Positions 5,339-28,524 of a stretch of 64,000 bases of DNA are shown one piece after another (position 1 is the first letter of the stretch; every line of letters starts with the position of its first letter). This DNA is from Bradyrhizobium sp. CB3481 (lineage in GTDB: Bacteria; Pseudomonadota; Alphaproteobacteria; Rhizobiales; Xanthobacteraceae). A program made the position numbers and the translations under genes. The DNA lies in contig NZ_CP121647.1 of the NCBI RefSeq assembly GCF_029714305.1, positions 6,778,501 to 6,842,500 on the forward strand, in the 5' to 3' direction. Under the pieces are notes generated by a model. That model made no database searches. It saw nothing but the letters and a program-made list of their open reading frames with translations, and had not been told where the DNA came from.

Positions 5339-8143
5339 ATGCCCCCGGCAATCCCGATCGCGACCTACCGCCTGCAATTGTCGGCGGACTTCGATTTCGA
5401 TGCCGCAGCTTCCGTAGTGCCCTATCTGAAGGCGCTCGGCATCACCCACCTCTATGCCTCTCCCTTCACGCGCGCCCGCAAGGGCTCAACGCACGGCTAT
5501 GACGTGACCGACCACGCCGAGTTCAATCCGGAGCTCGGCGGCGCAGCCGGCTTCGAGCGGTTGAGTGCCGCGTTGCGGCAGCATGATATGGGATTGATCC
5601 TTGATTTCGTGCCCAACCATGTCGGCGTGCATTGCGCCGATAATCCGTGGTGGCTCGACATGCTGGAATGGGGGCCGGCGTCGCCACACGCAGCCTCCTT
5701 CGACATCGATTGGGATCAGTTGCCCTATCGCGCCCGTGGCGGCGTGCTGCTGCCGATCATCGGCTCATCCTACGGACAGGCACTGGAGAATGGCGAGATC
5801 GAATTGCGCTTTGATGCCGGCGAAGGCAGCTTCTCAGCCTGGTATTATGAGCACCGGCTGCCGATCGCGCCGGAACGTTACGGCGAAATCCTGCGGATGG
5901 TCGTCAAGGAAGCCGGCTCAGAAGAAAGCACGGCCGGCAAGGCGATGCTGGCGCTGGCGCTGCGCTATCAAGGCCCGCGCCGTCCCAATCGCAAGGAAGC
6001 ACCGGGCTTCAAGGCCGAACTGCAAAGCATTGCTGGAGCCGCCGGCATCATCGCGCGGGGGCTGGATGCCTACCGCGCCGGCGCGGACCACGCCGCTCAG
6101 ACGCAGGCCCTGCATCATCTGCTCGAGCGCCAGCACTACAAGCTCGGCCATTGGCGGCTTGCTTCCAGCGACATCAATTACCGCCGCTTCTTCGATATCA
6201 ACTCGCTGGCGGGCCTGCGCGTCGAGGATGCCGGCACCTTCGCCGCGATCCATCGCCTGGTCAAACGGCTGATTGCTGAGGACAAGCTCCACGGGCTGCG
6301 GCTCGACCACATCGATGGCCTGCGCGATCCCGTGCAGTATTTCCAGCGCCTGCGCCGGCTGATCCGCGATGCGCATGGCGGCCATGTCAGGCCATTCTAT
6401 GTGGTGATCGAAAAGATTCTCGGCGAACACGAGAAACTGCCGTCATTTGCCGGCGTTCATGGCACCACCGGCTATGAGTGGATGAACACGATCACCCACG
6501 TGCTCACCGATGGCCGCGGACTGGAGCCGCTCGACGAGGTCTGGCGGCAGATCAGCAACCGCTCGCCGCAGCTCGAGCCGATCCTGCGGGAAGCCAAGCG
6601 CCGCGTTCTGGAAACGCTTCTCACCAGCGAGTTCACGGTGCTGACGCGCCTCCTGGCGCGCATCGCCAATGGGCACTACTCGACCCGCGACTATTCCGCC
6701 GACAGCCTGCGGCAGGCGCTCGAACTCTATGTGCTGCATTTTCCGGTCTATCGCACCTATCTGACGTCCTCGGGGCCATCAGAACATGATCGCCAGTTGA
6801 TCTCGCAGACGATCGAGCGGGCCCGCGCCGACTGGTTTGCTGCTGATGACGGCATTTTTGATTTCCTGCGCGACACCCTGACGATGGACCTGATCAAGCC
6901 CGGCCGCGCACATCACAGCGCGCCGCGCGTGCGCCGGTTCGCTCTAAAGGTTCAACAGTTCACCGGGCCGATGATGGCAAAATCGCTGGAGGATACGACG
7001 TTCTATCGCTACCACCGCTTGCTCGCGCTCAACGAGGTCGGCGGCGATCCCGCCGCGAAGGCGTTGTCGGTCGACGACTTTCATCAGATCATGCGGGCCC
7101 GCGCCAGGGAATGGCCGCACGGGATGACCGCGACAGCTACCCATGACACCAAGCGCGGCGAAGATGCCCGGGCGCGCATCATGGCACTTTCGGAAATTCC
7201 GGGCGAATGGACCAGCGCGGTGGCGCGATGGAAGCTGCTCAACGCACCGCATGTGGTGGCTGACGGGGATCTGCGGGCGCCGTCTGCAGCTTTCGAATAC
7301 ATGCTCTATCAGGCGCTGCTCGGCGCATGGCAGCCGGACGACGCGTCGTTCGTGGAGAGGATGCAGGAATATGCGCTGAAAGCCGCGCGCGAAGGCAAGC
7401 AGGAAACCAGCTGGCTCAATCCCCACGCGGCCTATGAAGAAGGCGTGAAAGATTTCATCGCAAAAATTCTCGACCCTTCGCTCTCGGGCGAATTTCTCGC
7501 TTCCCTGCAGACGCTGGCGCAGCGGCTGTCGCTCCTGGGCGCCTTGAATTCATTGAGTCAGATCACGCTGAAGGCGACGATGCCGGGTGTGCCGGATTTC
7601 TATCAGGGCACCGAGCTATGGGATCTCTCGCTGGTCGATCCCGACAACCGGCGTCCGGTGGACTTTGCAGAGCGCGCGGGCCGCCTCGATGCGCTCAAAA
7701 ATCCGGACTGGAAACGGCTCGTTGAAAAGTGGCCAAGCGGTCATCTGAAGCTCGCCTGGACACGGCATCTGCTCGAGCTTCGAACCGAGTTCGCCGATAC
7801 CTTCACGAATGGCGATTATGAGCCCTTGGAGGTGAGTGGGCCGAGCCACGACCATTTCATCGCATTTGCGCGGCGCCGCGGCCGCGAGGCAGCGATCATC
7901 GTCGCCACGCGCTGGTTCGCGCCGTTCACCGATGGCGGCAGACACTGGGCCAGTCCGGAGGCGTATGAGGCCGTGCTGAATGTGGCCGGCTATGCGGTCG
8001 AGGGCTTTGCCGATGCCGATGCCACGCAACTGCGCCTGTCCGACCTGCTGGCGCATCTGCCGGCGGCCGTGCTGAAAGCGAGGTTCAATGGCGCGGCGAA
8101 ACCGACACGGAAGCGTGAGCGCCTGGCGGCTATTTCTTCGTAA
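5339..8143 (+). CDS. treY: malto-oligosyltrehalose synthase TreY
   Basis: TreY (934 residues) converts the reducing-end alpha-1,4 bond of maltodextrins to alpha,alpha-1,1, giving maltooligosyl-trehalose for TreZ. The ATG at this position follows treZ by 4 bases and gives the typical N-terminus IPIATYRLQL. Further landmarks are the YASPFTRARKGSTHGYDV loop, FVPNHVGVH, the nucleophile region LHGLRLDHIDGLRDP, the acid region VVIEKILGEHEKLP, and ATATHDTKRGEDARARI. The length suits a TreY with the long internal insertion of this family. It is the last gene of the glgB-glgX-treZ-treY run; its 3' end overlaps the converging PHA-system gene by 14 bases. Confidence 0.96.
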   Translation: MPPAIPIATYRLQLSADFDFDAAASVVPYLKALGITHLYASPFTRARKGSTHGYDVTDHAEFNPELGGAAGFERLSAALRQHDMGLILDFVPNHVGVHCADNPWWLDMLEWGPASPHAASFDIDWDQLPYRARGGVLLPIIGSSYGQALENGEIELRFDAGEGSFSAWYYEHRLPIAPERYGEILRMVVKEAGSEESTAGKAMLALALRYQGPRRPNRKEAPGFKAELQSIAGAAGIIARGLDAYRAGADHAAQTQALHHLLERQHYKLGHWRLASSDINYRRFFDINSLAGLRVEDAGTFAAIHRLVKRLIAEDKLHGLRLDHIDGLRDPVQYFQRLRRLIRDAHGGHVRPFYVVIEKILGEHEKLPSFAGVHGTTGYEWMNTITHVLTDGRGLEPLDEVWRQISNRSPQLEPILREAKRRVLETLLTSEFTVLTRLLARIANGHYSTRDYSADSLRQALELYVLHFPVYRTYLTSSGPSEHDRQLISQTIERARADWFAADDGIFDFLRDTLTMDLIKPGRAHHSAPRVRRFALKVQQFTGPMMAKSLEDTTFYRYHRLLALNEVGGDPAAKALSVDDFHQIMRARAREWPHGMTATATHDTKRGEDARARIMALSEIPGEWTSAVARWKLLNAPHVVADGDLRAPSAAFEYMLYQALLGAWQPDDASFVERMQEYALKAAREGKQETSWLNPHAAYEEGVKDFIAKILDPSLSGEFLASLQTLAQRLSLLGALNSLSQITLKATMPGVPDFYQGTELWDLSLVDPDNRRPVDFAERAGRLDALKNPDWKRLVEKWPSGHLKLAWTRHLLELRTEFADTFTNGDYEPLEVSGPSHDHFIAFARRRGREAAIIVATRWFAPFTDGGRHWASPEAYEAVLNVAGYAVEGFADADATQLRLSDLLAHLPAAVLKARFNGAAKPTRKRERLAAISS

Positions 8144-18150: not shown

Positions 18151-20916
18151 CTACTCCGCCGCCGTTTGCAGCGCCACCTTTTCCGCGCGCACGGCGCAGA
18201 ACTTGAATTCGGGAATCTTGCCGAACGGATCAAGCGCAGGGTTGGTGAGCAGGTTCGCCGCCGCCTCCGCGTAGCAGAACGGCATGAACACCATGTTCTC
18301 GGGCACGTCGCGGTCGGAGCGCACCTTGATCTCGACGGCGCCGCGGCGGGTCTGCAGGCGGATGAAATCGCCGGGCCAGACGCTGAGCTTGCGCATGTCC
18401 TTCGGCGACATGAACGCCACCGCCTCCGGCTCGATCTGGTCGAGTACGGACGCGCGACGGGTCATCGACCCCGTGTGCCAATGCTCGAGTACGCGCCCCG
18501 TGGACAGCACCATCGGATAATCGGCATCGGGCACCTCGTCCGGCGCGATTACCTTGGCCGGTACGATCTTGCCGCGGCCGCTTTCGGTCGGGAATCCCGT
18601 GGTGAAGATGATCTCGTTGCCGGGCTGATTCGGGTCGTCGACCGGATAGGTCACCGCGCCCTCGCGGACCAAGCGATCCCAGGTGATGTTCTTCAGCGAC
18701 GGCATCACTTGCGTCATCTCGGTGAACACGTCGGCCGGGCCGTTGTAATCCCACGGCAGACCCATGCGCTTGCCGATCTCCTGGATGATCCAGAGATCCT
18801 GCCGCGCGTCGCCCGGCGGCCGGATCACCTCGCGCGCCAGCTGCACGCGGCGATCGGTGTTGGTGAAGGTGCCGCTCTTCTCTGCGAAGGCCGAAGCCGG
18901 CAGGATGACGTCGGCGTGGAACGCGGTCTCCGTGACAAAGAGATCCTGCACTACCAAATGATCGAGCATGGCGAGCGCTTCGCGCGCATGCTGCAGGTCG
19001 GGGTCCGACATCGCGGGGTTTTCGCCCTCGATATACATTCCCGTGATCTGGCCGGCATGGATCGCGTTCATGATCTCGACCACGGTCAGGCCGCGCACGG
19101 GATCGAGGTCCTGATGCCAGAGCTTTTCGAAGGGCTCGCGCAGATCGGTGCGGCCGACCGGCTGGTAGTCCGGCAGGAACATCGGAATCAGGCCGGCGTC
19201 GGAAGCGCCCTGCACGTTGTTCTGGCCGCGCAGCGGATGCAACCCGGTGCCGGGGCGGCCGATCTGCCCGGTGGTCAACGCCAGCGCAATCAGGCAGCGC
19301 GCATTGTCGGTGCCATGGACGTGCTGGCTGATGCCCATGCCCCAGAAGATGATCGAGGCCTGCGAACGCGCATAGGCCCGCGCCACTTCCTTCAGCGTCT
19401 CGGCCGGAATGCCGCAGATCGCTTCCATCTTCTCCGGCGGGAACTCCTTGATGCGCTCGGCAAGCTCGTCAAAGCCTTCGGTGTATCCAGCGATATATTG
19501 CTGGTCGGTCAGCCCCTCCGTGATGATGGTGTGCAGCATCGCATTCAGCATCGCGACGTCGCTGCCGGGCTTGAAGGCGAGATGCTTCCAGGCGTGGCGC
19601 GACAGCGCCTGCTTGCGCGGGTCCATCACGATCAGTTTTGCGCCGCCCTTGACCGCGTTCTTGAAGAAGGTCGCGGCAACCGGATGGTTCACGGTCGGAT
19701 TGGCACCGATCACGATGATGACTTCGGCGTCCATCGCGGCGGAGAACGGCGCCGACACTGCGCCGGAGTGCAGGCCTTCGAACAGGGCCGCTACCGAGGA
19801 GGCATGGCACAGCCGGGTGCAGTGATCGACATTGTTGGAGCCGAAGCCGGTACGCACCAGCTTCTGGAACAGGTAAGCCTCTTCGTTCGAGCCCTTGGCG
19901 GACCCGAAGCCGGCCAGCGCCTTGACGCCCTTCTCGTCGCGAATCTTCAGGAGACCCTTGGCCGCAATATCCAGCGCCTCTTCCCATGAGGCTTCGCGGA
20001 AATGCGTGAACGGATTGGCTGGATCGACCTGGTCGTTGGCGTCCTTTTTCGCGTTCGGCAGCCGCACCAGCGGCTTGGTCAGCCGATGCGGATGATGGAT
20101 GTAGTCGAAACCGAAACGGCCCTTGACGCAGAGGCGATTGTGGTTGGCGGGGCCATCACGGCCCTCGGCGTAAATGACCTTCTCGTCCTTGACCTGATAG
20201 GTGACCTGACAGCCGACGCCGCAGAACGGGCACAGCGAGTCGACCTTCTTGTCGGCGTAGGTGACGCGGGTCTGCTTCTCGTCCAGCATCACCGATGGCA
20301 TCAGCGCGCCGGTCGGGCAGGCCTGCACGCATTCGCCGCAGGCCACGCAGGTGGATTCACCCATCGGATCGTCGAAGTCGAACACGATCTTGGCGCCGGC
20401 ATTGCGATAGGCCATGCCGATGACGTCGTTGACCTGCACCTCACGGCAGGCGCGCACGCAGAGGCCGCATTGGATGCAGGCGTCGAGATTAACACTCATC
20501 GCCGGATGGCTGGTATCGCTTGTCCAGCGCTCAGCGGCCGGAAAACGGCTCTCGGTGACCTCGACCTTCTCGGCCCAGTGCCAGAATTTCGAATCGGGAT
20601 CGTGCGAGGTCTCGCGCGCGGGCTGGTCGGCGACCAGGAGTTCCATCACCATTTTCTGCGCGGCGACGGCGCGGGCACTCTCGGTCTTCACCTTCATGCC
20701 GACGCTCGGCGTGCGTTTGCAAGACGCCGCCAGCACGCGCTCGCCCTCGATCTCGACCATGCACGCGCGGCAATTGCCATCGGGCCTGTAGTCAGGCTCC
20801 GGCGAGTAGCACAGATGCGGGATTTCCTTCTGGTGGCGTTTTGCCACTTGCCAGATGGTCTCGCCCGTGTTGGCCTCGACCTGCTGGCCGTCGAGTTCGA
20901 ACTTGATCTTGGTCAT
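18151..20916 (-). CDS. fdhA: NAD-dependent formate dehydrogenase, alpha (catalytic) subunit
   Basis: A 921-residue molybdo- or tungsto-enzyme subunit that oxidises formate to CO2 in the cytoplasm. The N-terminus is a NuoG-like ferredoxin with [2Fe-2S] ligands Cys36, 49, 52 and 66. Two 4Fe-4S motifs follow (Cys147/150/153/157 and Cys190/193/196/200), then the cluster motif CPFCGVGC before the bis-MGD domain. The metal-ligand position reads DHCTRLCHASS, with Cys370 where selenocysteine sits in the E. coli enzyme, so this is a Cys-type enzyme. The gene overlaps the beta-subunit gene by four bases and comes second in the operon. No small delta subunit follows, as in the two-subunit FDH1 of methylotrophs. 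Confidence 0.95.
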   Translation of the reverse strand: MTKIKFELDGQQVEANTGETIWQVAKRHQKEIPHLCYSPEPDYRPDGNCRACMVEIEGERVLAASCKRTPSVGMKVKTESARAVAAQKMVMELLVADQPARETSHDPDSKFWHWAEKVEVTESRFPAAERWTSDTSHPAMSVNLDACIQCGLCVRACREVQVNDVIGMAYRNAGAKIVFDFDDPMGESTCVACGECVQACPTGALMPSVMLDEKQTRVTYADKKVDSLCPFCGVGCQVTYQVKDEKVIYAEGRDGPANHNRLCVKGRFGFDYIHHPHRLTKPLVRLPNAKKDANDQVDPANPFTHFREASWEEALDIAAKGLLKIRDEKGVKALAGFGSAKGSNEEAYLFQKLVRTGFGSNNVDHCTRLCHASSVAALFEGLHSGAVSAPFSAAMDAEVIIVIGANPTVNHPVAATFFKNAVKGGAKLIVMDPRKQALSRHAWKHLAFKPGSDVAMLNAMLHTIITEGLTDQQYIAGYTEGFDELAERIKEFPPEKMEAICGIPAETLKEVARAYARSQASIIFWGMGISQHVHGTDNARCLIALALTTGQIGRPGTGLHPLRGQNNVQGASDAGLIPMFLPDYQPVGRTDLREPFEKLWHQDLDPVRGLTVVEIMNAIHAGQITGMYIEGENPAMSDPDLQHAREALAMLDHLVVQDLFVTETAFHADVILPASAFAEKSGTFTNTDRRVQLAREVIRPPGDARQDLWIIQEIGKRMGLPWDYNGPADVFTEMTQVMPSLKNITWDRLVREGAVTYPVDDPNQPGNEIIFTTGFPTESGRGKIVPAKVIAPDEVPDADYPMVLSTGRVLEHWHTGSMTRRASVLDQIEPEAVAFMSPKDMRKLSVWPGDFIRLQTRRGAVEIKVRSDRDVPENMVFMPFCYAEAAANLLTNPALDPFGKIPEFKFCAVRAEKVALQTAAE

Positions 20917-22625
20917 TCCGCGGCCTCTTTCGGCACGAATTCTTCCGGAAAATATTTAATGACTGACGTCAGCGGATTCGAGGCGGCTTGTCCGAGACCG
21001 CAGATCGAGGCATCGCGCATCGCCTGGCTCAGCTGATCGAGCAGTTCGCGGTTCCACACCGGCCGCTGCATCAGCAACGCGGCCTTCTGCGTGCCGACCC
21101 GGCACGGCGTGCACTGGCCGCAGCTTTCATCCTCGAAGAACTTCATCAGGTTGAGCGCCGCATCCTTCACGCTGTCCTGCTCGGACAGGATGACGACGGC
21201 GGCGGAGCCGATGAAGCAGCCGTATTTTTCCAGCGTGCCGAAATCGAGCGGGATGTTGTCCATCGAGGCCGGCAGGATGCCGCCCGACGCGCCGCCCGGC
21301 AGATAGGCGCGGAAGGTGTGGCCGTCGGCCATGCCGCCGCAGAACTCGTCGATCAGCTCGCGCACGGTGATGCCCGATGGCGCCAGCTTCATGCCGGGAT
21401 TTTTCACGCGGCCGGACACCGAATAGCTGCGCAGGCCGTGACGGTCGTTGCGGCCGTGGCTCTGCCACCAATCGGCGCCCTTCTCGACGATATCGCGCAC
21501 CCACCACAGCGTCTCGATATTGTTGATCAGCGTCGGCAGGCCGAACAGGCCGACCTGGAACGGGTAAGGCGGCTTGTGCCTCGGCAGCCCACGCTTGCCC
21601 TCGATCGATTCGAGCAGCGAGGATTCCTCGCCGCAAATATAGGCGCCCGCGCCGCGGCGCAGGTGCAGCACCGGCCCGCCCCCCGGCAGCTTGGCGATCT
21701 CACGGCTGAGGATTTCGCGCGCGGCCGGATATTCGTCGCGGATGTAGATGTAGACGTCGCTCGCCTCGACCACATGTGCGCCGATCAGCATGCCCTCGAT
21801 GAAGCGATGCGGATCGGTTTCGAGATAGTAGCGATCCTTGAAGGTGCCGGGCTCGCCCTCGTCGCCATTGATCGCCATCAGCCGCGGACCGGGCTCTCCG
21901 AGCACCGCGCGCCATTTGCGCCCGGTCGGGAAACCGGCGCCACCGAGCCCGCGCAGCGAGGCATCGTCGAGCGCCTTCAGGAGATCTTCCTTGCTCATCT
22001 CGCCCGAGCGAAGCCGGCTCAGAAGCTTGTAGCCGCCGTCGGCGACATAGGCGTCGTAGTCGACATAATCAGGCAGATGCGTATGGGTCTCGCCGGCCTT
22101 GGCGGCAGCGAGCACATTCGTCACCGTGGCATGGTCGACGAAGTGATGGCCGACTTCGGCAGCGGGCGCCGTATCGCAGCGGCCGACGCAGGGTGCGCGC
22201 ACCACACGAATGCCGGGGCCGGCCTTGTCCTGCAGTTCATGCAGCAGCTTTTCCGCGCCCATCATCGCGCAGGTGAGCGAATCGCAGACGCGGATGGTCA
22301 GCGGCGCGATATCAGGCGCGCCCTCCTTCACCACGTCGAAATGCGCATAGAACGTCGCGGTTTCGAACACTTCCGCAAACGACAGCTTCATCTCGTCGGC
22401 CAGCGCCGCCAGATGCGCAGCCGAGATCTGGTGGTACGTGTCCTGGATGAGATGCAGGTGCTCGATCAGGAGATCGCGGCGCCGCGGGCGGTCGCCGAGC
22501 AGGAGCTCGATCTCGTGGGCGGCGGTGGGGTCGACCTGGCGGCCCTTCGGCGTCGCCTTGGCCCGCTTCCGGCCCGCGCCCGGATGCTCGAACGAGCGGA
22601 CCTCGTGCACGTTATGGATGTTCAT
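20913..22625 (-). CDS. fdhB: NAD-dependent formate dehydrogenase, fused gamma-beta (NuoE-NuoF-like) subunit
   Basis: A 570-residue diaphorase subunit that passes electrons from the alpha subunit to NAD+. Residues 35-160 are NuoE-like with thioredoxin-fold [2Fe-2S] ligands Cys114, 119, 146 and 150. The NuoF-like part has the FMN motif RGLGGAGFPTGRKW, the NADH-site sequence NGDEGEPGTFKDR, and a C-terminal 4Fe-4S motif ESCGQCTPCRVGT with the fourth Cys in SICGLGQ. The gamma and beta subunits are separate genes in fdsGBACD operons but fused here; the length is close to that of fused FDH1 beta chains. It is the first gene of the pair, with two palindromes just upstream. Confidence 0.95.
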   Translation of the reverse strand: MNIHNVHEVRSFEHPGAGRKRAKATPKGRQVDPTAAHEIELLLGDRPRRRDLLIEHLHLIQDTYHQISAAHLAALADEMKLSFAEVFETATFYAHFDVVKEGAPDIAPLTIRVCDSLTCAMMGAEKLLHELQDKAGPGIRVVRAPCVGRCDTAPAAEVGHHFVDHATVTNVLAAAKAGETHTHLPDYVDYDAYVADGGYKLLSRLRSGEMSKEDLLKALDDASLRGLGGAGFPTGRKWRAVLGEPGPRLMAINGDEGEPGTFKDRYYLETDPHRFIEGMLIGAHVVEASDVYIYIRDEYPAAREILSREIAKLPGGGPVLHLRRGAGAYICGEESSLLESIEGKRGLPRHKPPYPFQVGLFGLPTLINNIETLWWVRDIVEKGADWWQSHGRNDRHGLRSYSVSGRVKNPGMKLAPSGITVRELIDEFCGGMADGHTFRAYLPGGASGGILPASMDNIPLDFGTLEKYGCFIGSAAVVILSEQDSVKDAALNLMKFFEDESCGQCTPCRVGTQKAALLMQRPVWNRELLDQLSQAMRDASICGLGQAASNPLTSVIKYFPEEFVPKEAAE

Positions 22626-22652: not shown

Positions 22653-22684
22653 ATTAGATCAACTCTAATGTCTGGTATGCCAGA
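22653..22684. promoter_or_regulatory. paired palindromes upstream of the formate dehydrogenase operon (candidate operators)
   Basis: Two perfect inverted repeats lie 28 to 59 bases upstream of the fdhB start codon. ATTAGA-N5-TCTAAT (22653-22669) contains a T-N11-A core of the kind bound by LysR-type regulators, and TCTGG-TATG-CCAGA (22671-22684) resembles FadR/GntR-type TGGTnnnCCA sites. LysR-type control of formate dehydrogenase operons is known in Cupriavidus. No LysR or GntR gene is present nearby, so the regulator is inferred, not seen. Confidence 0.45.
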
Positions 22685-22927
22685 TGCCAAGCGAATTATG
22701 ATGTCTTGCTAAGTATTTAAGTCGCTGGCGGAGGCGTGGTTCGGGCGTTCGAGCATCCTCGGCGATTTTAGCCGATATCGCCTTGCCCGACCCAGCAATG
22801 AGAACGCGAAACGACCGCAGGATCAATAAAGCTGTTCCATGCTGCAATAGCGAACGCCTATCGCCCTGCGGCCGAACCCGCGTTGGCGGGCCGCCGCGGG
22901 GTTTGATCCCGCACGGCGGCCAAACCG
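22685..22927. other. intergenic region between fdhB upstream sites and the MFS transporter gene end
   Basis: About 240 bases with no supported gene. Short open frames here lack ribosome binding sites and protein-like composition. It must carry the core promoter of the fdhBA operon and any terminator of the transporter gene, but I cannot point to a convincing -35/-10 pair or a hairpin followed by a T run. Confidence 0.5.
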
Positions 22928-24583
22928 TCAGAGAATCTTGACGGCGCTTTCCAGCGTCTTCCAGACGCCCCAGGCCAGCGGAATGCCGACGAACGCCCAG
23001 AACAGCGCCGCCTTGGCGTCGAGGCCGCCGAAGCCGATACCGTAGGAGCCCGATGGCCCCGAGTTGCCGGCGCTCGCCGTCGCCGCCTGCAGCTTGGCGA
23101 CCTCGGCATCGCTCATGTGCCACTTCTTGTCGACCGGCTTGATCAGGTAGTTGCAGATCAGGCCCGCAATCAACATCGCACACAGGATGTACATCGTGGT
23201 GTTGTAGAGCTGGTCACGCGGAACGCCGGCCGCGAGCTGGAATTCGCGGATGTAGTTCACCACCACCGGGCCGATAATGCCCGCGGTCGACCATGCCGTC
23301 AGCAGCCGGCCATGGATGGCGCCGACGAACTGGGTGCCGAACATGTCGGCGAGATAGGCCGGCACGGTGGCGAAGCCGCCGCCATACATCGACAGGATGA
23401 TGCCGAAGCCGAGCACGAACAAGAGCTTCGAGCCCATCGCCGCAAATGTCGGCGCCAGCGCGTAGAGCGCGATGCCGAGGATGAAGAAGGTATAATAGGT
23501 GTTCTTGCGGCCGATCTTGTCGGACAGCGATGCCCAGAAGAAGCGGCCGCCGATATTGAACAGCGAGAGTAGCCCGGCGAAGCCGGCTGCGATGCCGGCA
23601 ATCGTCGCTTTCTGCGTCGCGTCGAGCTGGTTGAAGCCGACGTCAGGCAAGCCGATCAGCTTGCCGGCGAAGATTTCCTGCAGCATCGGCGAAGCCATGC
23701 CGATCACGCCGATACCGGCCGACACGTTGAGGCAGAGCACCCACCAGATCAGCCAGAACTGCGGCGTCTTGTGCGCGTCCTTCAGATGGACGTGGTTCTG
23801 CGAGATCATCGCATTGGCCTTCGCCGGCGGCGTCCAGCCTTCGGGCCGCCAGCCCGCCGGCGGAAGCCGGTAGCGGAAGGCGCCGATCATCATGAACACG
23901 AAATAAATCACGCCCATCGCGACGAAGGTTTCCCAGACGCCGACCGAAGTCGGGGTCTTGAAATAGTTCATCAGCAGGTTGGCCAGCGGCGCGCCGATCA
24001 TGGCGCCGCCGCCAAAGCCCATGATCGCCATGCCGGTCGCCATGCCGCGCCGGTCCGGGAACCATTTCACCAGCGTCGACACCGGCGAGATGTAACCGAG
24101 ACCAAGACCGACGCCGCCGATCACGCCCGAGCCGAGCCACAACAGCCACAATTGATGGGTGTAGACGCCGATCGCACCGAGAAAGAGCCCGCCGCACCAG
24201 CACATCGCCGAGACGAAGCCGGCCTTGCGCGGACCGACGCGCTCGAGCCAGCCGCCCCACACCGCTGCGGAAATGCCGAGCAGCACGAAGAACAAGGTGA
24301 ACATCCAGCCCAAGCTAGCGACCTTCCAGTCGCAGGTAGTGGTGAAAAGCTCCTGGAGCAGCGTCATGTCCGCGCACGCCTTCGGCGCATTCAGCCCGAT
24401 CGCGCGCGACAATGGCAGCCAGAACACGCTGAAGCCATAGGCCATGCCTATGCAGAGATGGATGCAAAGCGCCGCCGGCGGCACCAGCCAGCGATTGAAG
24501 CCGGCGGTCGCGATCGTTCGCTCTTTGTCGAGGAATCCCGTTCCTGCACCGGGGATGCTCCCGGCGCTGCTGATTGTTGTCAT
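22928..24583 (-). CDS. MFS transporter of the oxalate/formate antiporter (OFA) family
   Basis: A 551-residue, 12-helix inner-membrane transporter. The chosen ATG follows AGGGGAA by 7 bases; sequence upstream in frame is not protein-like and contains the promoter. Family landmarks are NRWLVPPAALCIHLCIGMAYG in the first helix, GGWLERVGPRKAG in loop 2-3 and GYISPVSTLVKWFPDRRGMA. It is about 100 residues longer than OxlT, with a Cys-containing loop after helix 1 (ACADMTLLQELFTTTCDW) and an extended C-terminus with another hydrophobic segment. Position between formate dehydrogenase and a two-component system suggests uptake or exchange of formate, oxalate or a related carboxylate; the actual substrate is inference. 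Confidence 0.88.
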   Translation of the reverse strand: MTTISSAGSIPGAGTGFLDKERTIATAGFNRWLVPPAALCIHLCIGMAYGFSVFWLPLSRAIGLNAPKACADMTLLQELFTTTCDWKVASLGWMFTLFFVLLGISAAVWGGWLERVGPRKAGFVSAMCWCGGLFLGAIGVYTHQLWLLWLGSGVIGGVGLGLGYISPVSTLVKWFPDRRGMATGMAIMGFGGGAMIGAPLANLLMNYFKTPTSVGVWETFVAMGVIYFVFMMIGAFRYRLPPAGWRPEGWTPPAKANAMISQNHVHLKDAHKTPQFWLIWWVLCLNVSAGIGVIGMASPMLQEIFAGKLIGLPDVGFNQLDATQKATIAGIAAGFAGLLSLFNIGGRFFWASLSDKIGRKNTYYTFFILGIALYALAPTFAAMGSKLLFVLGFGIILSMYGGGFATVPAYLADMFGTQFVGAIHGRLLTAWSTAGIIGPVVVNYIREFQLAAGVPRDQLYNTTMYILCAMLIAGLICNYLIKPVDKKWHMSDAEVAKLQAATASAGNSGPSGSYGIGFGGLDAKAALFWAFVGIPLAWGVWKTLESAVKIL

Positions 24584-24869
24584 CGCTATTTTCCCCTGCA
24601 GCCCGCGCTTGAGCGGGACTTTGTTTACTGTCTTCGATTCGTCATTCAGCCACGCAGTGGGGCAGCCCCATCCGCTGCTCCATGCGATTTCCGGAACGCG
24701 CGAAACCTGTTCGCGCATTCGAGAAAGTTCCACCCTGATGTTTTGATTGAGCTCGCAGCAGTGCCGGCCAATTGAGGTGAGATTTTGCCGACGTGAATAG
24801 CGGGCAGCAGTTCCATCCAACTGTGTACCCGTCTCATTGCCCTCCCTTTCATCTCGTTGAAAAGGAGTG

Positions 24870-24885
24870 AGCAATCCATGTGCCA
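24870..24885 (-). promoter_or_regulatory. sigma-54 (-24/-12) promoter for the OFA transporter
   Basis: The minus strand reads TGGCACATGGATTGCT, a near-perfect match to the RpoN consensus TGGCAC-N5-TTGCW with the invariant GG and GC 10 bases apart. Transcription would start near 24859 and leave a leader of about 275 bases before the transporter ATG. The response regulator gene just upstream carries the GAFTGA sigma-54 contact motif, which independently predicts such a promoter nearby. Confidence 0.8.
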
Positions 24886-24938
24886 AATCGCACGATGCCT
24901 GAAATCAATGACTTGTAAGGCAACCACCCTGCAACTCT

Positions 24939-24974
24939 GGACAAATTGTCCTGTTACTGCCGGACAAAATGTCC
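24939..24974. promoter_or_regulatory. two upstream activator palindromes GGACA-N3-TGTCC
   Basis: GGACAAATTGTCC (24939-24951) and GGACAAAATGTCC (24962-24974) are near-identical palindromes whose centres are 23 bases apart, about two helical turns. They lie about 85 and 110 bases upstream of the predicted sigma-54 start. That is the usual place for paired dimer sites of an NtrC-type activator. They sit immediately after the stop codon of the sensor kinase gene. The binding protein is inferred to be the neighbouring response regulator. Confidence 0.68.
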
Positions 24975-24985
24975 GCCCATCGGCG

Positions 24986-27010
24986 TCAGTCGGCCTCGGG
25001 AAGCCAAACGCGGAATGTGCTTCCTCGGCCGATTTCGCTCTCCACCGTAATCTGGCCACGCTGGCGCTTGATCAGCGTCTGACTGATGGAGAGGCCAAGG
25101 CCGGTGCCTTCCCGGCGCTTCGTCGTGAAGAACGGATCGAACACCTTCCCCACGACATCGGGTTCCATGCCGATTCCAGTATCGCCCACCTCGATGACGA
25201 TGCCGGGCACGCCGTCTCGATCGGCGTCGTATGAGCGAAGCGTCAGGCGCCCGCCCTCCGGCATGGCGTGGATGGCGTTGACGATCAGGTTGATCAGCAC
25301 CTGCTGCAGCTCGGTGCGATTCATCAGGACTAGGCGGCTGCCCCTGTCCTCTCTTGCAACCTCGATTTCCGTCTTGTTGAGGAGATGCTGCACCAGCGGC
25401 AGGCAGTCCGCCACGACGGCGCCGGGCGAATGACGCTCGACATAACCGGCATATTCCTCCGGCCGCGCGAACTGCAGCAGCTTGGTGACGATCTGGCTGA
25501 TCCGGTAGATCTGCTCATCGACCAGACGGAATTCGACCTTGGCCTTTTCGACGTCGTCGCCGATCACGCTTCTGATAACGTCGAGATTGCCCTGCATCAC
25601 CGCGATCGGATTGTTGATCTCGTGCGCTACGCCCGCGGTGATCTCGCCGATCGCCGCGAGTTTTTCCGACATGATGAGCTGCTTGGTGGTCGCCTCCAGC
25701 TTCAGATTGGCGAGTTCGAGGTCACGCGTCCGCTCGCGCACCCGGATATTCAACTCCTCGTTCCACTCGCGCAGCTGACGGTCGCGCTCCTGGATCTGGT
25801 CCAGCAATGTGTCGAGGTGAACCGCCACGCGGCCAATCTCGTCGCCCGACGCCGGCAGTTTGGTGCGCGCGGAGAGATTGCCGCTCTCCACCTCGCCGAT
25901 CGTCGCGGTGACGCGTTCTAGCGGCATGAAGATCGATTGCGCCCAGCGCAGGAAGATCGGCACGGTAGCGACGGTGATCACGATGAAGGCGAGCGCGATG
26001 ATCAGGAGCGTCTCGAGCTTGGCGTCGTTGAACGGCTTCTGCAGAAAGCCGACATAGAGCATGCCGACGCGCTTGCCGTAGGTATCGACGAGCGGCTCGT
26101 AGGCCGAGATGTACCAGTCGTTGACGACGAAGGCGCTGTCGAGCCAGGTGCGCCCCTCCCCTAAGACCGCGGAGCGCACCGCCGCCGACACCCGCGTCCC
26201 CAGCGCACGCCTTCCCTCGAACAGGCGGACATTGGTCGAGATCCGCACGTCATCCAGGAACAATGTCGCCGTGCCCTGGCTGCCCTCCGGCAGGCTCGCC
26301 GCCTGGTAGACGAGGTCGTTGATCGTATCGATGAATTCCAGATTCTGGTTCAGCAGAATCCCACCGACGAGCGCCGCCGGCCCGCCTCCGGGCGCCGTTG
26401 CGCGGCTCGCAGCATGCACCACCATGCCATGGGTTTCGGTGCTGCGGTCGGTCGGCACCGCATTTGGCGTCGGGACCAGATCGAGGCGCGCGCGCTCGGC
26501 AAGCGCAGGCGAAATCGCCGCAAGCTCGTCACCGGTAAAGATATCGACGCCCGTCGACGGCGATTGGCCCGACAGCGCAGAAGTGATGATCGGCCAGTCG
26601 GCCCTTGGCGCTCCCTTGAGTTGGGGTGACGAGGCCACGACCTTTCCGCTTGCATCCATCAAATAGAGGAAGTCGAGGCCCATCTCCTTGCGGGACTGCT
26701 CGAGCAAGGTCTCGACGGCCGCGAGCGTTTCCTGCTCTTCGACCTCCCGGAAGCGAAACGAGAGGCTGAGCCCGCGGATTTGAACGCCGGTTTTTTCCAG
26801 GATACGCGCCAGATATTGATGGGCGATGGTGAGATCGCCGTTCACCTTCGAGATCAGTGTCGCGTCGAACCGCGCATTCCAGCGATAGGCAGCGACGCCT
26901 AGCAGCAGCGGCAGGATGACCAGCATCGGCAGCAGCGCGATGGCAAGCAGCCGGAAGCGAACGGATTGTCCGCGAACGGGATCTTGCATGCTGCCCGCGC
27001 GGTCAGCCAT
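24986..27010 (-). CDS. sensor histidine kinase with periplasmic Cache-type domain
   Basis: A 674-residue membrane kinase. A first membrane helix (about residues 19-42) and a second (about 334-355, TLLIIALAFIVITVATVPIF) enclose a periplasmic region of about 290 residues that looks like a Cache-type ligand sensor (MGLDFLYLMDASGKVVASSP; SAFVVNDWYISAYEPLVD). HAMP follows (about 356-408), then a short coiled coil, the phospho-accepting His463 in AGVAHEINNPIAV, and a HATPase domain (NLIVNAIHAM, GDTGIGM, GTGLGLSIS). The start overlaps the response regulator by eight bases. The periplasmic ligand is probably the carboxylate handled by the neighbouring transporter, but this is inference. Confidence 0.92.
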   Translation of the reverse strand: MADRAGSMQDPVRGQSVRFRLLAIALLPMLVILPLLLGVAAYRWNARFDATLISKVNGDLTIAHQYLARILEKTGVQIRGLSLSFRFREVEEQETLAAVETLLEQSRKEMGLDFLYLMDASGKVVASSPQLKGAPRADWPIITSALSGQSPSTGVDIFTGDELAAISPALAERARLDLVPTPNAVPTDRSTETHGMVVHAASRATAPGGGPAALVGGILLNQNLEFIDTINDLVYQAASLPEGSQGTATLFLDDVRISTNVRLFEGRRALGTRVSAAVRSAVLGEGRTWLDSAFVVNDWYISAYEPLVDTYGKRVGMLYVGFLQKPFNDAKLETLLIIALAFIVITVATVPIFLRWAQSIFMPLERVTATIGEVESGNLSARTKLPASGDEIGRVAVHLDTLLDQIQERDRQLREWNEELNIRVRERTRDLELANLKLEATTKQLIMSEKLAAIGEITAGVAHEINNPIAVMQGNLDVIRSVIGDDVEKAKVEFRLVDEQIYRISQIVTKLLQFARPEEYAGYVERHSPGAVVADCLPLVQHLLNKTEIEVAREDRGSRLVLMNRTELQQVLINLIVNAIHAMPEGGRLTLRSYDADRDGVPGIVIEVGDTGIGMEPDVVGKVFDPFFTTKRREGTGLGLSISQTLIKRQRGQITVESEIGRGSTFRVWLPEAD

Positions 27011-28436
27011 TCCATAACGCGAGTTTGCGGTCGATGGTCTTGCGTGAAATGCCGAGCCGCCGGGCCGCTTCCTCGCGGTTGCCGCCGGCCTCCTTCAGCA
27101 CCGAAAGAATATGCCGGCGCTCCAGGTCCGCCAGACTGTCGGCGGTGGCCGCCTGGCCGTCGTTTCGCGGACCGGCAAAATCGTCCGGGAATGCGCCGAG
27201 AATCAAGGTGCGCTCGATCAAATTGCGCAATTCGCGCACATTGCCGGGCCAGTCGTAGCTCGCCAGCGCAGCCCGCACGGCGCTGTCGATCGGAACCGGC
27301 GGCATGCCGAGCTGCATCGAGAGCTTGTTCATGAAGATGGCGGCGAGCTCCTGCACGTCGTCGCCGCGATCTTTCAACAACGGCAGATGAATCTGCATGA
27401 CATTCAGCCGGTAATAGAGATCGGCGCGGAAGCGTCCCTTCTCTACCGCCTTCTGCAGATCGGCATTGGTCGCAAAGATGAAGCGAAGATCGACCGGTAC
27501 TTCGCGTTCAGCGCCGACCGGACGAACGCGGCGGTCCTCCAGCACGCGCAGCAACTTACTCTGCATCGGCAGCGGCAGCTCGCCGATTTCGTCGAGGAAC
27601 AGCGTGCCGCCATGCGCATAGAGAAACAGGCCTTCGCGGCCGCCTTCGGCGCCGGTGAAGGCGCCCTTGATGTGCCCGAACAACTCGCCCTCGATCATCT
27701 CGGGCGGAATGGCGGCGCAGTTGACCGGCACAAACGGCTTCTCGGCGCGATCGGACAATGAGTGGATAGAGCGTGCCGCGACCTCCTTGCCGGTACCGGA
27801 TTCGCCGGTCAGAAGGATCGATGTCGGCAGCGGGGCGACACGCGCAATGGTCTCGCGCACGCTGCGGGCCGCCGGCGACTCCCCGATCAGATTGTCGCGC
27901 AGGAAGGTGCGGTCGGATGACGCGCGTAGCGCATAACGCAGCACATAGTTCTCGCGCTGCAGCCGGACGCGGTCGAGACAGCGTGCGACCGCATTGAGTA
28001 TCTGGTTCGAGCGGAACGGTTTCAGCACGAAATCCACCGCGCCGGCGCGCAGCGCCTGAATCGCGGTATCGAGATCGGCATAGGCCGTGATCAGGATGGC
28101 GTCGGCAAAGAAACCGACGGCCCGCTGCTCCGCCAGCCAGTCGACGCCGTTCTTGCCCGGCATGATATTGTCCAGGATGACGATGTCGAACCGGCTCTTG
28201 TCGAGCTTGCGCGAGGCCTCGTCCGTATCGGCCGCCTCCTCCACATGCTTGCAGCGCGGTCCCAGCGTGCGCATCAGGAAATTGCGCATGCCCGGCTCGT
28301 CATCGATAATCAGGATCGAGGCCTGCGCCAGCGCGCTGAACTCAGGCGTGCCGGCCGATTTGCCGAGCTTTGCCGCCGGCTCATTGGCCGTGGCAGTGGG
28401 TGCCGCTGCGCTTGCCTTCGATGTCGGGAGGTTCAT
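27003..28436 (-). CDS. sigma-54-dependent response regulator (NtrC/DctD type)
   Basis: A 477-residue activator. The ATG was preferred over an upstream TTG that adds 12 residues. A low-complexity tail of about 38 residues precedes the receiver (about 39-155: DDE pocket at 45-47, phospho-acceptor Asp89, Lys139). The AAA+ domain has Walker A GESGTGKE (211-218), GAFTGA (258-263) and GGTLFLDEIGELP. The C-terminal Fis-type helix-turn-helix reads GNREEAARRLGISRKTIDRKL. The kinase gene overlaps its 3' end, so the two form one unit. Its likely target is the RpoN promoter with the paired GGACA palindromes ahead of the transporter gene. Confidence 0.94.
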   Translation of the reverse strand: MNLPTSKASAAAPTATANEPAAKLGKSAGTPEFSALAQASILIIDDEPGMRNFLMRTLGPRCKHVEEAADTDEASRKLDKSRFDIVILDNIMPGKNGVDWLAEQRAVGFFADAILITAYADLDTAIQALRAGAVDFVLKPFRSNQILNAVARCLDRVRLQRENYVLRYALRASSDRTFLRDNLIGESPAARSVRETIARVAPLPTSILLTGESGTGKEVAARSIHSLSDRAEKPFVPVNCAAIPPEMIEGELFGHIKGAFTGAEGGREGLFLYAHGGTLFLDEIGELPLPMQSKLLRVLEDRRVRPVGAEREVPVDLRFIFATNADLQKAVEKGRFRADLYYRLNVMQIHLPLLKDRGDDVQELAAIFMNKLSMQLGMPPVPIDSAVRAALASYDWPGNVRELRNLIERTLILGAFPDDFAGPRNDGQAATADSLADLERRHILSVLKEAGGNREEAARRLGISRKTIDRKLALWNG

Positions 28437-28524
28437 GCCGGGATTTCTAGGACCGTATGTCGCACCCGGCAATCGTACGTTTTAATGAGGTCGTTGTCCT
28501 ACGCGGGGCTTGCAGACACCCATA

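Follow-up and report, generated by a model that had tools for sequence, protein, structure and literature searches.

A predicted formate-responsive sigma-54 switch in front of a carboxylate transporter gene in Bradyrhizobium sp. CB3481

Which signal is read, and which gene is switched on, by the two-component system beside positions 24,870-24,974 of a 64,000-bp stretch of the Bradyrhizobium sp. CB3481 genome (the window; contig NZ_CP121647.1, positions 6,778,501 to 6,842,500)? In a preliminary description of the locus, this segment was proposed to be a sigma-54 module with paired activator sites, located next to a two-component system and in front of an OFA transporter gene. The arrangement of the module was confirmed by the present analysis. 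The locus probably represents a DctBD-like switch by which formate controls a carboxylate transporter gene. Ligand binding, phosphotransfer, binding of the regulator and of integration host factor (IHF), RpoN dependence, the transcription start and the transported substrate are what we infer from the sequence.

Paired palindromes and the -24/-12 element

The pattern GGACANNNTGTCC had exactly two matches in the window, 23 bp apart, where 0.03 were expected, and none of 100 shuffled sequences contained two. These two upstream activating sequences (UAS1 and UAS2) are the sole close pair of exact GGACA-N3-TGTCC sites in the whole 8.04-Mb genome, which is a single contig. The pair is far beyond chance. 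The spacing of 23 bp agreed with the preliminary description, and the centres, placed there at about -85 and -110, were computed to be at about -86 and -109. Six further single exact sites were observed elsewhere in the genome (L001-L004 and two other places).

The sigma-54 promoter consensus is TGGCAC-N5-TTGC[AT]. One exact match to TGGCAC-N5-TTGCW was found in the window, at the conserved and nearly ideal minus-strand element noticed previously, and counting from C24871 as -12 gave a predicted start at 24859, in agreement with the preliminary description. With one mismatch allowed, three matches were found against 1.67 expected, and 26 of 100 shuffled sequences reached three. Taken alone, the -24/-12 element is therefore not beyond chance, and its position and conservation carry the weight. 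A match to the IHF consensus WATCAANNNNTTR, overlooked in the preliminary description, is located between the enhancer sites and the promoter. It was the only one in the window; because 0.58 are expected per window by chance, it was weighed by its place and conservation. Three RpoN (sigma-54) genes (G000:C1:134219, 5187183 and 5874556) and an IhfA scoring over the cut-off are encoded in the genome.

Domain searches confirmed the adjacent activator and Cache-domain kinase. The regulator contains the Response_reg, Sigma54_activat and HTH_8 domains and the GAFTGA motif, which places it among the NtrC-family activators.

Between the kinase and transporter genes, the conserved parts are the paired sites, the IHF-like site and the -24/-12 element. 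Mean column identity in 14 Bradyrhizobium loci was 0.99 for UAS1 (the alignment anchor, so that this value is favoured), 0.91 for UAS2, 0.82 for the IHF-like site and 0.86 for the -24/-12 element, whereas the gaps gave 0.37-0.50 and the transporter leader 0.52-0.56. An unanchored alignment of 19 loci revealed the same blocks, with L127, L128 and L038 diverging. Both sites together with TGGC-N7-TTGC were matched in 77 of 265 genomes of the genus, and the reversed pattern in none. Among 36 genomes of the genus (CB3481 and 35 others), the full module was present in all 14 with the regulator, defined as 71% identity or more, and in none of the 22 without it (p = 2.6e-10, valid if the genomes are independent). 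The co-occurrence is partly co-inheritance, because the module and the regulator gene adjoin.

Site spacing was 22-23 bp in 61 and the distance from UAS1 to TGG 87-89 bp in 60 of 68 distinct modules, which were chosen by pattern and are mutually related, the counts not being independent events. With at most one mismatch, the IHF-like site was found in 44 of the 68 module spacers and in 17 of 1360 shuffled spacers; it usually stands 30 bp before TGG (54 of 68 modules).

The palindromes lie 11-47 nt past the kinase stop codon, and matches to the -24/-12 pattern are frequent once one mismatch is tolerated, as might be expected if the palindromes terminated the kinase gene or bound a different regulator, such as a repressor, and the -24/-12 element were incidental. 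This explanation is made very improbable by the constant distance to a -24/-12 element that does not vary, by the module tracking the regulator, and by the same pairs preceding genes for bestrophin, hsp20, dnaK and clpB, away from the end of any kinase gene.

The features are collected in Table 1. The minus-strand gene order is TusA-like, response regulator, kinase, transporter, formate dehydrogenase beta and then alpha subunit, with moeA and mobB upstream. Rfam at the gathering threshold matched only a tRNA in the window; an RNA element in the transporter leader, of which little is conserved, was therefore rejected.

Table 1. Features of the switch, its neighbours and related elements (window positions unless a locus or contig is named)
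Feature	Position	Strand	Remarks
NtrC-type response regulator	27003..28472	-	receiver, AAA+ with GAFTGA, Fis-type helix-turn-helix; start codon uncertain
Sensor histidine kinase	24986..27010	-	Cache sensor, HAMP, HisKA, HATPase
Kinase codons R256-T272	26195..26245	-	R-x2-T-x12-T, formate-binding spacing
UAS1	24962..24974	.	GGACA-N3-TGTCC, centre about -109
UAS2	24939..24951	.	GGACA-N3-TGTCC, centre about -86
IHF-consensus match WATCAANNNNTTR	24903..24915	+	between enhancers and promoter
-24/-12 element TGGCACATGGATTGCT	24870..24885	-	predicted start 24859
Major facilitator superfamily (MFS) transporter	22928..24583	-	ATG at 24583; nearest families SfMCT and OFA; leader about 276 nt
Conserved element TTGGCATCTGGCATACCA in front of fdhB	22673..22690	-	separate control
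Formate dehydrogenase beta subunit	20913..22625	-	NuoE-NuoF fusion
Formate dehydrogenase alpha subunit	18151..20916	-	closest to tungsten FDH1 (7vw6)
TTGGCATCTGGYATRCCA-related sites	L179:7282 and 7363; G000:C1:2829362		oxalate-locus intergenic region among them

The regulator and its site in other lineages

Of 385 genomes sampled across the class, five matched the module: two of the genus, two others (L241 and L242), in which regulator, kinase, module and transporter genes stand in a row, and one with the match in a repeat-protein-like gene (G700). Paired-site matches were obtained in 18 of 397 genomes; 11 of the 13 examined had a -24/-12 element at the expected distance and two did not (L172 and L173). 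Three of the remaining five share one similar coding-like repeat, and a second match in G647 looks alike. Second paired-site matches were also observed in G660 and G662.

In Rhizobium terricola and Agrobacterium sp. a22-2 (regulator identity 75%), both sites and the promoter are kept before the transporter gene. The window-type fdhBA genes are not located behind it, and a distant formate dehydrogenase-like set (34-39%) is found on the opposite side. An exact core pair, CGACA/TGACA-N3-TGTCG/A with a spacing of 22-23 bp, was found in two of five beta-proteobacterial loci (L048, near 6806-6841, and L049, near 6814-6848) and a single exact core in the other three (L046, L051 and L052). In L048, L049 and L046 the cores are located between divergent formate dehydrogenase-like and regulator genes. 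The regulator helix reads SRRTLERR in L048, L049 and L052 and SRKTLERK in L046, in place of SRKTIDRK. In Vibrio maritimus the gap between the regulator gene and tungstate-uptake-like genes contains a -24/-12 element and a single site that deviates at one position. In the gamma-proteobacterial loci L050 and L053, tungstate-uptake-like genes, with cofactor genes behind them, diverge from the regulator-kinase pair. A module at L171:8229-8333 precedes acyl-CoA ligase and ABC transporter genes, with a related regulator downstream (78% over the part compared). Complete modules were also observed before proteins of unassigned function in L218 and L220, with no regulator in the stretch fetched, and the genomes G554 and G627 likewise have a module but no regulator there.

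Against the site belonging to this regulator throughout its family, the exact paired core was absent from all eight whole genomes with Rhodobacterales-type orthologues; the Roseobacter-type loci L039-L045 and L047 showed no paired site. Across the 19 genomes searched for the paired core, the pair was found in six, and one match, the second in G647, looks coding. Conservation of the palindromes and the -24/-12 element in orthologous loci, raised in the preliminary description, thus extends through Bradyrhizobium and several other genera and stops short of the Rhodobacterales-type genomes. As GGACA-N3-TGTCC co-occurs with the regulator and recurs with its relatives, we infer that it is the binding site of this regulator.

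Signal and transported substrate

The sensor of the kinase seems made for the detection of extracellular formate. In a profile search of the PDB, the only matches under 0.001 were 8py0 and 8py1 (E 2.9e-4), receptor domains crystallised with formate, which were also first by structural Z (16.0 and 16.1). Residues R256, T259 and T272 keep the R-x2-T-x12-T spacing, and in fold and residues the sensor agrees with the formate-binding Cache_3-type sensors. The same fold is found in the formate chemoreceptors (8py0, 8py1, PacF, Atu0526 and McpF), and the spacing in 8py0, 8py1 and PacF. The chemoreceptors steer chemotaxis, whereas here the binding module belongs to a histidine kinase, in which an additional domain separates it from the first helix.

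The same sigma-54 switch could respond to another carboxylate, such as lactate, pyruvate, acetate or oxalate, or to a family of these, if the formate-like pocket has drifted. The sensor is just 21-25% identical to the formate-bound domains, DctB-type and other Cache folds match it almost as well (DctB is first by Foldseek E-value), and the transporter scored just under the cut-off of the L-lactate model SfMCT (NF049980; 318.3 of 320 bits). This alternative is nevertheless unlikely, in view of the profile result given above and of the residues R, T and T, which never vary among the 43 kinase loci and keep the exact spacing in 42. In addition, regulator-kinase pairs adjoin formate dehydrogenase or tungstate-uptake genes in other lineages. 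Formate is therefore proposed as the likeliest signal, which narrows the carboxylate sensing suggested in the preliminary description.

Residues R272 and K355 are the key residues of OxlT, the oxalate:formate antiporter. The transporter shares the MFS fold family with OxlT and, when aligned to its structure (8hpj), keeps R272 as R347; K355 is replaced by W431. It scored 135.9 bits against the OxlT model TIGR04259 (cut-off 335) and 153.7 of 374.85 bits against the other oxalate/formate model. A genuine OxlT (655.6 bits), retaining the lysine as read by eye, is encoded at 2.82 Mb, near oxalyl-CoA decarboxylase (1053.8 bits). Identification of the transporter as an oxalate:formate antiporter, implied by its earlier designation as an OFA transporter, was rejected because of the score below the cut-off, the replaced lysine and the genuine OxlT elsewhere. 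A monocarboxylate, formate first, appears more likely as substrate than oxalate.

In the proposed mechanism, extracytoplasmic formate would be bound by the kinase in its Cache module, which adjoins the second membrane helix, and the kinase would phosphorylate the NtrC-type regulator. Regulator dimers would then occupy UAS1 and UAS2, while IHF would bend the DNA between these sites and the promoter. The AAA+ ring would remodel sigma-54 polymerase at the -24/-12 element, leading to transcription of the transporter gene, whose product has formate or another small monocarboxylate as its most likely substrate.

DctB-DctD is the C4-dicarboxylate system of rhizobia and is linked to the carrier gene dctA. 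The predicted switch would work alike, but the neighbour here is an MFS_1 protein and not dctA, the profile and Z searches rank formate-bound domains first for the sensor, and the site is GGACA-N3-TGTCC. FhlA, the formate-responsive sigma-54 activator of E. coli, senses intracellular formate with its own domain. A sigma-54 activator, a formate dehydrogenase context and formate as the signal, here predicted, are features in common with FhlA; in contrast, a membrane kinase would here sense formate outside the cell, and the FhlA model score was 235 of 830 bits.

Formate dehydrogenase and chaperone genes

The alpha subunit of the dehydrogenase was closest to tungsten FDH1 (7vw6, 1695 bits), and together with the NuoE-NuoF-fused beta subunit the enzyme is predicted by homology to be of the tungsten NAD-dependent FDH1 type. 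A conserved element in front of fdhB, which had escaped notice earlier, indicates separate control. TTGGCATCTGGYATRCCA was found before fdhB in 13 of 14 loci (absent in L124). When one mismatch is allowed, three sites exist in the genome: the one at fdhB, one in the oxalate locus that separates a CoA-ligase gene from a GntR-FCD regulator gene, and one next to a gene named by eye as malate dehydrogenase. Common oxalate-formate control through the fdhB element and the oxalate-locus sites is likely, and through the GntR-FCD regulator the dehydrogenase is probably linked to oxalate degradation, whatever the extent of sigma-54 read-through.

Transcription of the transporter and fdhBA genes as one formate operon from the sigma-54 promoter is possible, though we consider it doubtful. 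The genes keep the same strand and order, with the transporter and fdhB genes about 290 nt apart, in 13 Bradyrhizobium loci besides the window, and no strong terminator stands out; set against this are the separate fdhB element, common to the oxalate locus beside the GntR-FCD regulator, and the occurrence of regulator, kinase, module and transporter together without the window-type dehydrogenase in some relatives (L036 and L037; L241 and L242). A single circuit of formate sensing and formate dehydrogenase is not supported, because the dehydrogenase genes have their own conserved element. With RpoN and IHF encoded elsewhere, the self-contained circuit of the preliminary description can comprise no more than sensor, activator, sites and target.

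In seven genomes (G004, G250, G431, G436, G502 and G615 of the genus and G121 of the order), a regulator of 67-74% identity was found in a chaperone cluster. DnaK, DnaJ, CbpM-like and ClpB homologues were present in all seven clusters and, within the fetched stretches, Hsp20 was matched in four and YdeP in six. Modules precede bestrophin, clpB, dnaK and hsp20-dnaK genes. In the tree, the seven chaperone-linked regulators formed one group (99/97), next to the transporter-linked L178. Loci in which related regulator-kinase pairs and the same enhancer modules accompany DnaK/DnaJ/CbpM/ClpB clusters, bestrophin genes and YdeP-family genes are L127, L167, L168, L169, L210-L217 and L219. The ydeP gene was dropped as a proven target: the pair before ydeP in L167 lacks a -24/-12 element at the right distance. 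Elsewhere, a module between ydeP and a bestrophin gene points to the bestrophin gene.

Tentatively, one family of kinases for extracellular formate, with one enhancer code, may have been redeployed in Bradyrhizobium and a relative, to a carrier in many strains and, through a related pair with the same sites, to Hsp20-DnaK, ClpB and bestrophin genes next to a YdeP-family oxidoreductase gene in others, so that formate, as formic-acid stress, would trigger a sigma-54 chaperone response directly. In the literature searched, which included PMC12501870, PMC12415202 and PMC8698456 and where coverage of subscription journals was thin, nothing recognisable on formate-sensing two-component systems or on sigma-54 two-component chaperone regulons was among the matches listed, and the papers listed for exact 13-mers of the site all concerned the SsoII/Ecl18kI methyltransferase site. 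The type of switch is familiar; the formate signal and the DNA code for it were not met in that literature.

What makes the locus interesting is its predicted signal, an enhancer code that is portable, and the chaperone branch. For a regulator family of alpha-, beta- and gamma-proteobacteria it offers, in one testable package, a likely signal together with a binding site and the layout of a promoter. Regulons in other genomes, chaperone clusters included, are predicted from the site, which could also be used as a formate-inducible promoter for C1 applications in alpha-proteobacteria. If true, two-component control of sigma-54 genes by extracellular formate would stand beside the intracellular sensor FhlA.
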